Source: Spirodela intermedia
Lineage: Eukaryota > Streptophyta > Magnoliopsida > Alismatales > Araceae
Assembly (NCBI GenBank): GCA_902729315.2
Contig: LR746272.1
Span: forward strand, 1-64,000
Reading direction: 5' to 3'
Length of the DNA: 64,000 nt
In this document: piece after piece, positions 5,293 to 15,141 of the stretch
Numbering within the stretch: position 1 is the stretch's first letter
Layout of the letters: the number at the start of each line of letters is the position of its first letter
Notes under the pieces: model-generated
The model's database searches: none
Told to the model about the DNA's origin: nothing
Seen by the model: the letters and a program-made list of their open reading frames with translations, nothing else
Position numbers and translations under genes: made by a program

Positions 5293-5682
5293 CACCCCTG
5301 GTTGGGTTGCGGTCCTGAACTGTTGGTGCCTGTCCCGTGCATTGCATGTTGCGGCTGCTCCGCGTGTTCTGAACCTCCAACACCATGCCCCGGAGGCACC
5401 CACCATGCCAGGCATATGTGGCAACCATCTCACCATGCCAAGATGCCAGCTCCAAGGCGTGAGAGGCAGCCCTGCCACCATGCCAAGGCATATGTGGTAT
5501 CCATCTCATCATGCCAAGGCGCCCCAGCTCCAAAGGCGTGCGAGGCACCCCGCCACCATGCCGAGGCATAAGTGGCATCTATCTCCGAAGAATGTGCCGA
5601 GATGCACCAAAGTGCTTGGGCATGTGAAGTACCGGGATGGGTGACCTCCGAGAAGTTCGCCCAAGACAATTATCCCAAAAAA
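5293..5682 (+). mobile_element. 5S-SINE unit 1, head lost
   Basis: Most distal unit, directly joined to the hexamer array. The 5S head is missing; the unit starts in a divergent spacer and keeps the internal repeats, the second 5S-like block and a 6-A tail that runs into CCTAAACCC. Confidence 0.8.
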
Positions 5683-5707
5683 CCTAAACCCTAAACCCTA
5701 ACCCCTA

Positions 5708-6234
5708 AGTGGGAGAGTTGCCACGGATCCCATAAGAACTCGGAGTTAAGTGTGCTCGGGTGGGAGCAGTCACGGATGGGTGACCTCCAGGAAGTCCCAG
5801 ATGCGTGTGCATGCGTTGCGAGGCGCTTGCTCGCATGTGCTGAAAGCGCCGCTGCATTATCGTGCCACCAAGCGCGTGTTCTGAACCCCTCAACACCATG
5901 CCAAGATGCTTCAAGTTTGAAGAAAGTGTCGAGACACCCTTGCCACCATGTCGAGGCATATGTGGCAACCATCTCACCATGCCAAGGCGCCCCAGCTCCG
6001 AAGAGCGTGCGAGAGGCACCCTGCCACCATGCTGAGAGGCATATGTGGCATCCATCTCATCATGCCAAGGCGCCCCAGCTCCAAGAGCGTGCGAGAGGCA
6101 CCCGCCACCATGCGAGAGGCATATGTGGCATCTATCTCTGAAGAATATGCACGAGAGGCACCAAAGTGCTTGGGCATGTGAAGTACGGGATGGGTGACCT
6201 CCAGAAGTTGACCCAAGACAATTATCCCAAAAAA
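5708..6234 (+). mobile_element. 5S-SINE unit 2, full
   Basis: Full-length unit (527 bp) with 5S head, three internal repeats, second 5S-like block and 6-A tail followed by telomere repeats. Head spelling GCCACGGATCC. Confidence 0.85.
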
Positions 6235-6259
6235 CCTAAACCCTAAACCCTAACCCCTA

Positions 6260-6793
6260 AGTGGGAGAGTTGCCACGGATCCCATAAGAACTCCGGAGTT
6301 AAGTGTGCTCGGGTGGGAGCAGTCACGGATGGGTGACCTCCACAGGAAGTCCCAAAGATGCGTGTGCATGCGTTGCGAGGCGCTTGCTCGCATGTGCTGA
6401 AAGGCGCGCTGCATTATCGTGCCACCAAGCGCGTGTTACGAACCCCTCAACACCATGCCAAGATGCTTCAAGTTTGAAGAAAGTGTCGAGACACCCTTGC
6501 CACCATGTCGAGAGGCATAGGTGGCAACCATCTCACCATGCCAAGGCGCCCCAGCTCGAAGAGCGTGCGAGAGGCACCCTGCCACCATGCCGAGAGGCAT
6601 ATGTGGAAACCATCTCACCATGCCAAGATGCCCCAGCTCCAAAGAGCGTGCGAGGCGCACCCGCCACCATGCCGAGAGGCATATGTAGCATCTATCTCGA
6701 AGAATGTGCACGAGAGGCACCAAACTGCTGGGCATGTGAAGTACCAGGATGGGTGACCTCGAGAAGTTGGCCCAAGGCAGTTATCCCAAAAAA
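6260..6793 (+). mobile_element. 5S-SINE unit 3, full
   Basis: Full-length unit (534 bp), same order of parts as unit 2, 6-A tail followed by CCTAAACCC. Confidence 0.85.
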
Positions 6794-6818
6794 CCTAAAC
6801 CCTAAACCCTAACCCCTA

Positions 6819-7342
6819 AGTGGGAGAGTTGCCACGGATCCCATAAGAACTCGGAGTTAAGTGTGCTCGGGTGGGAGCAGTCACGGATGGGTGACCTCCA
6901 CAGGAAGTCCCAAGATGCGTGTGCATGCGTTGCGAGGCGCTTGCTCGCATGTGCTGAAAGCGCGCTGCATTATCGTGCCACCAAGCGTGTTACGAACCCC
7001 TCCAACACCATGCCAAGATGCTTCAAGTTTGAAGAAAGTGTCGAGACACCCTTGCCACCATGTCGAGGCATATGTGGCAACCATCTCACCATGCCAAGGC
7101 GCCCCAGCTCCGAAGAGCGTGAGAGGCACCCGCCACCATGCGAGAGGCATATGTAGCATCCATCTCATCATGCCAAGGCGCCCCAGCTCGAACAATGTGC
7201 GAGGCACCCGCCACCATGCGAGAGGCATATGTAGCATCTATCTCGAAGAATGTTCACGAGAGGCACCAAAGTGCTTGGGGATGTGAAGTACCGGGATGGG
7301 TGACCTCCGAGAATTCGGCCCAAGGCAGTTATCCCAAAAAAA
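6819..7342 (+). mobile_element. 5S-SINE unit 4, full
   Basis: Full-length unit (524 bp). The last internal repeat carries the GAACAATGTG variant and the second 5S-like block reads TTGGGGATGTG, marks shared with units 6, 9 and 13. Confidence 0.85.
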
Positions 7343-7369
7343 CCTAAACCTAAACCCTAAAAACCCCTA

Positions 7370-7824
7370 AATGGGAGAGTTGCCAGCGGATCCCATAAGA
7401 ACTCTGGAGTTAAGCGTGCTTAGGTGGGAGCAGTCACGGATGGGTGACCTCCTGGGAAGTCCCAAAGATGCGTGTGCATGTGTTGCGAGGCGCTTGCTGT
7501 GCATGTGCTGAAAGGCACCGCTGCATTATCGTGCCGCTAGGCACATGTTATGAACCCCTCAACACCATGCCAAGATGCTTGAGTTTGAAGAGCGTGCGAG
7601 AGCACCCCTGCCACCATGCGAGAGGCATATGTGGAAACCATCTCACCATGCCAAGATGCCCCAGCTCCAAAGAGCGTGCGAGGCACCCCTGCCACCATGC
7701 GAGAGGCATATGTAGCATCTATCTCGAAGAATGTGCACGAGAGGCACCAAACTGCTTAGGCATGTGAAGTACCAGGATGGGTGACCTCCGAGAAGTTACG
7801 GCCCAAGGCAGTTATCCCAAAAAA
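7370..7824 (+). mobile_element. 5S-SINE unit 5, short subtype
   Basis: 455-bp unit of a second subtype: head with CCAGCGGATCC and GTGCTTAGG, spacer with GCTAGGCACATG, and two internal repeats rather than three. Units 7, 11 and 15 share these marks and length. Confidence 0.85.
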
Positions 7825-7849
7825 CCTAAACCCTAAACCCTAACCCCTA

Positions 7850-13007: not shown

Positions 13008-13042
13008 CCCTAAACCCTAAACCCTAAACCCTAAAACCCCTA

Positions 13043-13500
13043 AGTGGGAGAGTTGCCAACGGATCCCATAAGAACTCTGGAGTTAAGCGTGCTCAGGTGG
13101 GAGCAGTCACGGATGGGTGACCTCCTGGGAAGTCCCAAGGTACGTGTGCATGCGTTGCGAGGCGCTTGCTGTTCATGTGCTGAAAGGCACGCTGCATTAT
13201 CGTGCGCTAGGCACATATTCTGAACCCCTCCAACACCATGCCAAGATGCTTGAGTTTGAAGAGCGTGCCAAGAGGCACCCCTACCACCATGCCGAGAGGC
13301 ATATGTGGAAACCATCTCACCATGCCAAGATGCCCCAGCTCCAAAGAGCGTGCCGAGGCGCACCCCTGCCACCATGCCGAGAGGCATATGTAGCATCTAT
13401 CTCGAAGAATGTGCACGAGAGGCACCAAACTGTGTGAAGTACCAGGATGGGAGACCTCACGAGAAGTTCGGCCCAAAGACAGTTATCCCAAAAAAAAAAA
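13043..13500 (+). mobile_element. 5S-SINE unit 15, short subtype
   Basis: 458-bp unit of the unit 5/7/11 subtype; 11-A tail and telomere repeats, here without a fused fragment. Confidence 0.85.
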
Positions 13501-13572
13501 CCCTAAACCCTAAACCCCAAACCCTAACCCCCAAAGTGGGAGAGTTGCCACGGATCCCATAAGAACTCCGGA

Positions 13573-13623
13573 GTTAAGCGTGCTCGGGTGGGAGCAGTCA
13601 CGGATGGGTGACCTCCTGGGAAG
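13573..13623 (+). promoter_or_regulatory. 5S-type internal promoter (A box and C box) in unit 16 head
   Basis: A box at 13573-13588 (GTTAAGCGTGCTCGGG) and C box at 13602-13623 (begins GGATGGGTGACC). Plant 5S rRNA has these boxes in the same order and spacing, where TFIIIA binds and Pol III is recruited. Box positions are seen; activity is inferred. Confidence 0.7.
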
Positions 13624-13829
13624 TCCCAAAGATGCGTGTGCATGCGTTGCGAGGCGCTTGCTTTGCATGTGCTGAGAGGCACCCCTGCCACCATGCCGAG
13701 AGGCATATGTGGCAACCATCTCACCATGCCAAGATGCCCCCAGCTCGAAGCGTGCGAGAGGCACCCCTGCCACCATGCCGAGAGGCATATGTGGCATCTA
13801 TCTCGAAGAATGTGCCGAGAGGCACCAAA

Positions 13830-13866
13830 GTGCTTGGGCATGTGAAGTACGGGATGGGTGACCTCC
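13830..13866 (+). promoter_or_regulatory. Second 5S-like block near the 3' end of unit 16
   Basis: GTGCTTGGG at 13830-13838 and GGATGGGTGACCTCC at 13852-13866 repeat the 3' half of 5S rRNA, 30-40 bp before the A tail. All complete units have it. It could be a second promoter or a structural end recognised by the reverse transcriptase; the sequence does not decide. Confidence 0.6.
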
Positions 13867-13932
13867 CGAGAAGTTCAGCCCAAGACAGTTATCCCAAAAA
13901 AAAAACCTAAACCCTAAACCCTAAACCCCCTA

Positions 13933-14359
13933 AGTGGGAGAGTTGCCACGGATCCCATAAGAACTCCGGAGTTAAGCGTGCTCGGGTGGGTGCAGTCACT
14001 GGATGAGTGACCTCCTTGGAAGTCCCAAGGTGCGTGGTGCGTGTGCATGCGTTGCAAGATGCTTGCTATGCATGTGCTGAAAGGCACCGCTGCATTATCG
14101 TGCCGCCAGGCACGTGTTCTGAACCCCTCAACACCATGCCAAGATGCTTGAGTTTGAAGAGCGTGCGAGAGGCACCCCTGCCACCATGCCGAGAGGCATA
14201 TGTGGCAACCATCTCACCATGCCAAGGCGCCCCAGCTCCGAAGAATGTGCGAGAGGCACCTGCAGAATGTGCCGAGAGGCACCAAAGTGCTTGGGGATGT
14301 GAAGTACGGGATGGATGACCTCCCGAAGTTGGCCCAAGACAGTTATCCGAAAAAAAAAA
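13933..14359 (+). mobile_element. 5S-SINE unit 17
   Basis: 427-bp unit with a duplicated GTGCGTG in the spacer and a truncated last internal repeat. A tail of about 10, then only CCCCCTAAG before unit 18. Confidence 0.85.
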
Positions 14360-14366
14360 CCCCCTA

Positions 14367-15141
14367 AGTGGGAGAATTGCCACCAGATCCCATAAGAACT
14401 CCGGAGTTAAGCGTGCTCGGGTGGGAGCAGTCACTGGATGAGTGACCTCCTTGGAAGTCCCAAGGTGCGTGGTACGTGTGCATGCGTTGCAAGATGCTTG
14501 CTATGCATGTGCTGAAAGGCACCGCTGCATTATCGTGCCGCCAGGCACGTGTTCTGAACCCTCAACACCATGCCAAGATGCTTGAGTTTGAAGAACGTGC
14601 GAGGCACCCCTGCCACCATGCGAGAGGCATATGTGGCAACCATCTCACCATGCCAAGATGCCCCAGCTCCGAAGAGCGTGCGAGAGGCACCCTGCCACCA
14701 TGCCGAGAGGCATATGGCATCATCTCACCATGCCAAGGCGCCCCAGCGAAGAGCGTCGAGAGGCACCCTGCCACCATGCAGAGAGGCATATGTGGCATCA
14801 TCTCACCATGCCAAGGCGCCCCAGTTTGAGCGAGAGGCACCCCTGCCACCATGCGAGAGGCATATATGGCATCCATCTCACCATGCCAAGACACCCCAGC
14901 TCCGTAGAGCGAGAGGCACCCCTGCCACCATGCCGAGAGGCATATGTGGCATCCGTCTCACCATGCCAAGGCCCCAGCTCCAAAGAATGTGCCGAGAGGC
15001 ATCCCCGCCATGTCGAAGAATGTGCTAGTGGCATCTATCTCTGAAGAATGTGCGAGATGCACCAAAGTGCTTGGCGTGTGAAGTACGGGGCGGGTGACCT
15101 CGAGAAGTTCAGCCCAAGATAGTTATCCCAAAAAAGAAAAA
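14367..15141 (+). mobile_element. 5S-SINE unit 18, expanded internal repeats
   Basis: 775-bp unit, the longest: five or more internal repeats of about 84 bp occur between about 14600 and 15000. The interrupted tail AAAAAAGAAAAA runs into CCCTAAACCCTAAA and then LINE A. The expansion shows that the internal repeat behaves as a minisatellite. Confidence 0.85.

Follow-up and report, generated by a model that had tools for sequence, protein, structure and literature searches.

Short interspersed elements (SINEs) with a head derived from 5S rRNA are known from animals and fungi. The SINE3-type families covered in PMC10886601 and PMC3747384 (zebrafish SINE3, AmnSINE1, HaSE3 and Ped-1) are short, non-coding retroposons with a 5S-derived RNA polymerase III (Pol III) head and target-site duplications (TSDs). 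5S-related SINEs are reported from Aspergillus in PMC5063351, 5S-derived SINEs are stated to have arisen several times (PMC10886601), and PMC10853983 places such promoters in SINEs "in animals". We have found a SINE family with these same traits in a plant, the duckweed Spirodela intermedia, within a stretch of 64,000 nucleotides (contig LR746272.1, positions 1 to 64,000; hereafter the window) that forms the left end of contig C9. Unlike the SINE3-type elements, it has a plant host, carries a second 5S fragment at its 3' end, shows no 3' domain found to be shared with a long interspersed element (LINE) and is concentrated in telomere repeats.

The plant SINEs Au, p-SINE1 and ZmSINE2 (PMC3747384) are, like this family, presumably L1-dependent, but they have tRNA heads, and the monocot families shown in that paper end in T runs where the present one has an A tail. 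Cassandra, a terminal-repeat retrotransposon in miniature (TRIM), is likewise a plant retroelement with a captured 5S promoter and occurs in tandem arrays (PMC7215508, PMC10853983); it differs in its long terminal repeat (LTR) mechanism and in clustering at or around 5S rDNA, and the string "telomer" is absent from the main texts of both papers. Non-LTR elements that lie in or form telomere arrays include Zepp of Chlorella, TRAS and SART of insects, MoTeR and FoTeR of fungi and HeT-A and TART of Drosophila (PMC10088271, PMC12857005), and the orientation found here, with the 5' end towards the chromosome tip, is that given there for MoTeR1 and the FoTeRs. In contrast to Zepp, TRAS, SART, MoTeR and HeT-A, the present system belongs to a land plant, has a LINE that is not exclusive to telomeres and includes an accompanying SINE with its own 5S-type promoter. 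Reptile SINE-derived satellites (PMC10702118) are also SINEs turned into tandem arrays; here, whole A-tailed units alternate with telomere repeats. The telomeric elements named in PMC10088271 are from insects, Chlorella, fungi, Giardia, rotifers and a lizard, with no land plant among them, and the word SINE is absent from the main text of the S. intermedia genome paper (PMC7645714). Neither a plant SINE with a 5S head nor a non-LTR element inserted in the telomeres of a land plant turned up in the literature searched, outside which most subscription journals lie; within that literature, the first-pass annotation of this DNA was right to call the family undescribed.

The genome assembly comprises 136.5 Mb in 32 contigs, of which C1 to C18 are chromosome-sized, sum to 135.7 Mb and provide the 36 chromosome ends counted below. 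S. intermedia is given as having 18 chromosomes, with 5S on Chr15 and Chr14 (PMC7645714). The array and the features that define it are as follows.

5293..15135, + strand: head-to-tail array of 5S-headed SINEs interleaved with telomere repeats; 20 3' ends and 17 heads.
6252..6787, + strand: representative full unit, with AACCCCTAA, then GTGGGAG, a 5S-like head, a middle part, ~80-bp internal repeats, a 5S-like tail ending in GTTATCCC, and A6.
13531..13631, + strand: best 5S rRNA covariance match in the array (RF00001, 38.3 bits, gathering threshold 38).
8122..13495, + strand: higher-order repeat, in which 8122-11172 recurs at 10436-13495 with an offset of 2314 bp.
15160..23817, + strand: L1-type LINE whose 5' end abuts the array; an A-rich tail is followed by CCCTAAA, and domain pieces lie in separate short frames.
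15181..15186, + strand: first run of at least four T past the array (T6); it lies in the LINE 5' region and is a candidate Pol III stop.

The array begins where a (CCTGGG)n block ends (5293) and runs to about 15135; telomere-like repeats past its last unit lead into the LINE, whose 5' end is recognised from about 15160. All 20 unit 3' ends close with GTTATCCC or a similar sequence, followed by 6-11 A, and the 17 heads carry GTGGGAGAGTTGCC. Units U01, U08 and U13 have no head, and unit spans range from 300 to 770 bp. One to five CCCTAAA-like repeats follow the A run in 17 of the 20 units, and at 8851, 11167 and 14350 the next unit starts directly after it. These limits bear out the coordinates first given for the array (5293..15141), and the estimate of about 18 units that came with them was fair. 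The A tails described at that time are present. That account of the units was sound, but it did not take in the adjoining LINE, the second 5S fragment in the tail, the copies in chromosome interiors or the segmental duplication reported here.

A consensus built from 58 heads was compared with the genome's own 5S, taken from the C15 locus, and the 5S derivation proposed at first pass was upheld with 85% identity (92/108 aligned positions). The box A and box C regions are kept; the first 20-30 nt are poorly alike to 5S. The head carries a sequence resembling a Pol III internal promoter, and transcription by Pol III is putative. A second 5S fragment, at the SINE 3' end, scores 65 against 5S compared with a shuffled maximum of 32. 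The middle of the unit consists of a stretch of ~110 bp and usually two to three ~80-bp repeats, with up to five in the last unit. Judged on interior copies, the "CCCCTAA" immediately before GTGGGAG is element sequence and not telomere. In the window, RF00001 exceeds its curated threshold at a single place (38.3 vs 38 bits), and the same 5S model listed 23 places outside 5S genes genome-wide, 8 of them above the cut-off (47 of 4366 candidates scored).

Copies in chromosome interiors settle the class of the element. Thirteen were examined (loci L033-L045 without L039, L033 being two copies), and ten were testable for TSDs; left out were L040, whose 3' end is lost under another insertion, and L038 and L043, which belong to another 5S-like family. 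Direct repeats flank all ten, nine of them strong (10-19 bp) and one weak. Nine copies have TSD scores of 11-19, compared with at most 10 for mismatched flanks, and L036 is weak at 9 vs 8. The TSD lengths, in bp, are:

L033+, 10 (core); L033-, 11; L034, 17 (1 mismatch); L035, 19; L036, 9 (weak).
L037, 19 (1 mismatch); L041, 13; L042, 15 (1 mismatch); L044, 13; L045, 19.

An A-rich tail is present in nine of the ten copies, L041 having none; L044 is 5'-truncated and L045 lacks part of its 5' end. In six copies (both at L033, L034, L035, L037 and L041) 10-14 bp lie between the end of the upstream repeat and the head, the repeat stopping just ahead of the C-rich start of the element, and box A in these six lies ~48 nt from the element start, compared with 50 in 5S (by eye). 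Seven of the ten TSDs start with AA, five of these as T/AA (by eye; the slash marks the start of the repeat), as in CCCT/AAACCC. Interior copies with TSDs and A tails prove SINE-type retrotransposition, so that the units are a 5S-headed SINE and the SINE-like reading first put forward is supported. At L042, the SINE, its A tail, CCCTAAACCCTAAA (two telomere-like repeats), a stretch resembling the LINE start and ending in a T run, and then A are all enclosed by one 15-bp repeat with 1 mismatch, and at L033+ the telomere-like sequence CCCTAATTTGT follows the A tail; both copies look as if they had been made from run-on transcripts begun in telomeric SINEs. The second 5S-like family, at L038 (C1:8476369) and L043 (C1:3486748), has a similar head and a different body, with further box-C-like stretches in L043.

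Genome-wide, a head pattern search allowing 3 mismatches gave 110 matches (53 forward, 57 reverse) against 0 for the reversed pattern used as a control, which excludes chance. Distances to chromosome ends were counted for the 99 heads on C1-C18 among the 100 of 110 that were listed, a set that includes C1:8476369 and C1:3486748 of the other 5S-like family and counts three heads twice via the right ends of C1 and C6, all of them more than 50 kb from an end. Of these listed heads, 57 lie within 20 kb of an end, 78 within 50 kb and 85 within 100 kb, near 22, 26 and 28 of the 36 ends, respectively. The share within 50 kb (78/99) compares with an expected 1.3%, and in 76 of those 78 the head faces the tip, the exceptions being C4:24708 and C9:29301 (in an inverted duplicate). 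The search of other chromosome ends that the first-pass annotation had proposed thus places listed heads near 26 of 36 ends at 50 kb or less. In a tree of heads, chromosome ends are mixed, with local clusters on C9. On the right arms of C1 and C6, matches stand equally far from the chromosome end (83665, 83095, 82538 and others), and the last 80 kb or more are apparently common to the two chromosomes or shared in the assembly. The 5S genes, among those listed, are on contig 15 only, in two groups at C15:4,621,705-4,657,166 with a spacing of 523-541 bp. No unit of the SINE family is listed at those genes (C15:4.62-4.66 Mb), the nearest listed head being C15:4110968, 0.5 Mb away.

Junctions were counted at the 53 non-interior 3' ends, window included, with a strict regular expression for telomere sequence after the A run. 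A telomere repeat follows the A run in 41 of the 53 by this count and in 6 more by eye, and the other 6 are not telomeric; upstream, a telomere repeat precedes 45 of 50 heads. Outside the window, telomere sequence resumes at CCC after 18 of 23 A runs and at CC after 4. Resumption at CCC is the outcome that priming from a G-strand nick at GGGTTT/AGGG would give. At the 5' junction the telomere repeat is met in several phases, a pattern that separate insertions would give.

The LINE adjoining the array has pieces of zf-RVT and RVT_3 (RNase H) above the cut-off and of Exo_endo_phos, DUF4283 and a zinc knuckle below it. A better-kept copy at C4 yields RVT_1 (E 1.8e-21) and an endonuclease (E 6.6e-10), with zf-RVT and DUF4283 also above the cut-off. 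The predicted domain set, comprising an APE-type endonuclease, reverse transcriptase, zf-RVT and RNase H together with the A tail, fits the L1 clade, and such a set is typical of plant L1. The window also holds more diverged LINE copies, which share 68-70% identity with the LINE beside the array, at 23872-25652 and 53982-62382; those at 58912-62382 are inverted. Among the 38 LINE 5' ends listed on chromosomes, 28 lie within 50 kb of an end and 33 within 100 kb; those within 50 kb are near 16 ends, and 21 of the 28 have the 5' end to the tip. For LINE 3' ends, the search was confined to the best 40 places, of which the 39 on chromosomes were used; 17 of those listed lie within 50 kb of an end, and 16 of the 17 have the 5' end to the tip. 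Telomere repeats occur at LINE junctions on C4R, C30, C7L and C13R. From the tip inward, the C4 right end reads in one direction as telomere, SINE, A38 and telomere, LINE (10030711 to 10022031), A22 and 203 bp of telomere. Further in, and in the same direction, follow SINE, SINE, A18 and telomere, LINE (10020902 to 10010172, with an insertion), A23 and telomere. C30 opens with telomere and a LINE 5' end; deeper in the contig come a LINE 3' end with A26, telomere, pieces of a LINE 5' end and then of a SINE tail, and one more LINE 5' end.

We assign a probability of about 0.8 to the reading that a SINE with a 5S head, a second 5S fragment and an A tail is inserted in trans by a LINE at a nick in the telomere, with telomere addition and unequal exchange following. 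The interior TSDs, the address in telomere repeats at chromosome ends, the orientation and the LINE neighbours are directly observed, and onto them the following steps may be fitted. Putative Pol III transcripts would begin at the first bases of ACCCCCC(T/C)TAGTGGGAG. The L1-type LINE of the same arrays would copy the SINE RNA in trans by target-primed reverse transcription; the longer LINE thus probably helps the SINE to copy itself. The LINE endonuclease would nick the telomere G strand at TTT/AGGG, and the exposed TTT would pair with the A tail, so that priming there would leave the A tail beside CCCTAAA and the head towards the chromosome tip. The AA starts of the interior TSDs show this same nick shape, which is the preference of L1-type elements. 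Telomerase or the remaining telomere sequence would supply CCCTAAA outside the new head and the cycle would repeat, after which unequal exchange would enlarge arrays locally, as in the 2.3-kb higher-order repeat. Transcripts from the 5S heads would cross the array without meeting a T run and would stop at the one in the LINE 5' region; there is moderate evidence, in the lack of TTTT and the first T run at 15181 in the LINE, that Pol III may read through the array.

Several observations weigh against this scheme. Local duplication accounts for part of the array: five unit pairs one period apart (U07/U12, U08/U13, U09/U14, U10/U15 and U11/U16) are 98.0-99.7% identical, and from sequence comparison a block of ~2.3 kb is judged to have been duplicated in an array that already existed. 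A segmental duplication with a 2,314-bp period thus makes up part of the array, and not every unit is a separate insertion. Inside the window, telomere sequence resumes at CC in 12 of 18 cases and at CCC in 6, many of these units being duplicates. In L036 and L042, 29 and 42 bp separate the upstream repeat from the head, a greater distance than the model would give. The absence of TTTT from the sense strand of the 9,849-bp array is modestly unusual by shuffling, since 5 of 200 shuffles also reach zero (shuffle mean 3.68). LINE 5' ends are more loosely oriented than the SINE heads, with 7 exceptions among the 28 within 50 kb, 4 of them on the duplicated C1/C6 end, and LINE 3' ends are not restricted to telomeres, 21 of the 39 listed being more than 100 kb from an end. 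Comparison of SINE and LINE revealed no common 3' sequence (score 14 vs a shuffled maximum of 22), so that the case for a partnership is made by their proximity, their A tails and the similar shape of the nick; a common 3' end is not required for A-tailed SINEs of the L1 type.

Local duplication also bears on a quite improbable alternative, that the units are a 5S rDNA-derived subtelomeric satellite carried from one chromosome end to another by unequal exchange or break-induced replication, with no part played by retrotransposition. In its favour are the higher-order repeat, whose paired units reach 99.7% identity, the near-identical heads on C3R, C8R and C17L, and the identical distances of matches from the C1 and C6 right ends. 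The ten interior copies with flanking direct repeats, nine of them with A-rich tails, nevertheless contradict it for the family as a whole; A-run lengths and the telomere phase of the 5' junction vary, and neighbouring units on C3R differ in both. Exchange adds to insertion and does not replace it. The first-pass annotation had named a location mainly at 5S rDNA, or a lack of A tails and telomere flanks at other sites, as signs of such a satellite; the true 5S genes lie elsewhere, and an A tail with telomere repeats was found at the 41 3' ends of the strict count. With units away from 5S rDNA and TSDs present, we reject the satellite.

The 5S units might instead be promoter monomers of the LINE's own 5' end, and tandem 5' monomers are known from mouse L1. 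The array does end at a LINE 5' end, SINE units stand just before LINE 5' ends at other chromosome ends, and on C8R (L004/L020) and C12R (L047) no A run or telomere repeat was flagged in the 20 bp or less that separate the SINE tail from the LINE. At L022, L023, L039, window position 15130 and L021 (with ~260 bp more), however, an A tail and telomere repeats separate SINE from LINE; at L031 a diverged LINE 5' end follows a telomere repeat and the tail of the previous LINE, with no SINE between; and the SINE copies in chromosome interiors have moved with no LINE sequence, the short stretch in L042 excepted. Monomers would also predict one TSD enclosing SINE monomers and LINE together, and none was seen in the loci examined. 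We reject this very improbable explanation on the A tail and telomere between SINE and LINE at several ends, though two ends lack them. Tandem arrays of a Cassandra-type TRIM, an LTR retrotransposon whose LTRs would hold the 5S sequence, can hardly be credited. The Cassandra TSD is about 5 bp, against 10-19 bp here, and the unit has an A-rich tail. It does carry 5S-like sequence at both ends, as Cassandra would, but the two segments are alike over ~55 bp only. Arrays of Cassandra are known in plants (PMC7215508), and a TSD of 5 bp is given for plant Helenus and for Ajax (PMC10886601). Cassandra was rejected on TSD length, the A tail and the absence of long terminal repeats (no search for a primer-binding site was made), which bears out its dismissal at first pass.

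The remainder of the window holds further SINE copies and the two blocks that precede the array:

1..1319, + strand: terminal CCCTAAA telomere array at the contig end (Tandem Repeats Finder 5-1319, period 7, 184 copies).
1399..5293, no strand assigned: (CCTGGG)n block of 3.9 kb between telomere and SINE array, 648 copies.
26921..27196, + strand: 5' part of a SINE copy, preceded by telomere-like repeats and lying past the A tail of a LINE 3' end at 26692-26902.
29068..29673, - strand: SINE tail, A tract, telomere repeats, SINE head and LINE 3' end; inverted duplicate of 37.4-38.3 kb.
37433..38441, + strand: SINE tail, A tract, telomere repeats, SINE head, LINE 3' end with A16, short SINE and telomere repeats; a LINE 5' end is next, at 38454.
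50580..50878, + strand: short SINE copy with A17, then telomere repeats and a LINE 5' end at 50945.
58266..58416, + strand: SINE head without a 3' part; telomere-like repeats upstream.

In the assembly, the (CCTGGG)n block is confined to the C9 left end, since all 609 exact 30-mers found genome-wide are the 609 in the window. The inverted duplicate of ~1 kb (28844-29900, - strand, and 37200-38262, + strand) is 98% identical in its LINE 3' part and contains the SINE-telomere-SINE-LINE junction. A match to the plant snoRNA R71 lies at 32018-32124 on the - strand (44.2 bits vs a cut-off of 40).

Cassandra has been proposed to derive from a SINE3 insertion (PMC10886601), and a real plant 5S-SINE means that such a source can exist in plants. 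The listed matches describe a plant with the SINE near 26 of 36 ends, LINE 5' ends near 16 and telomerase-type repeats between copies. It is a doubtful but conceivable extension that this plant lengthens its ends by telomerase together with an L1-type LINE/5S SINE pair acting on the telomere G strand, the array serving as a bank of promoters from which Pol III would run through into the LINE 5' end; this would be a plant counterpart of HeT-A/TART with telomerase still in charge. The duckweed host is small, mostly clonal and easy to grow, which makes insertion, telomere length and Pol III transcription directly testable.

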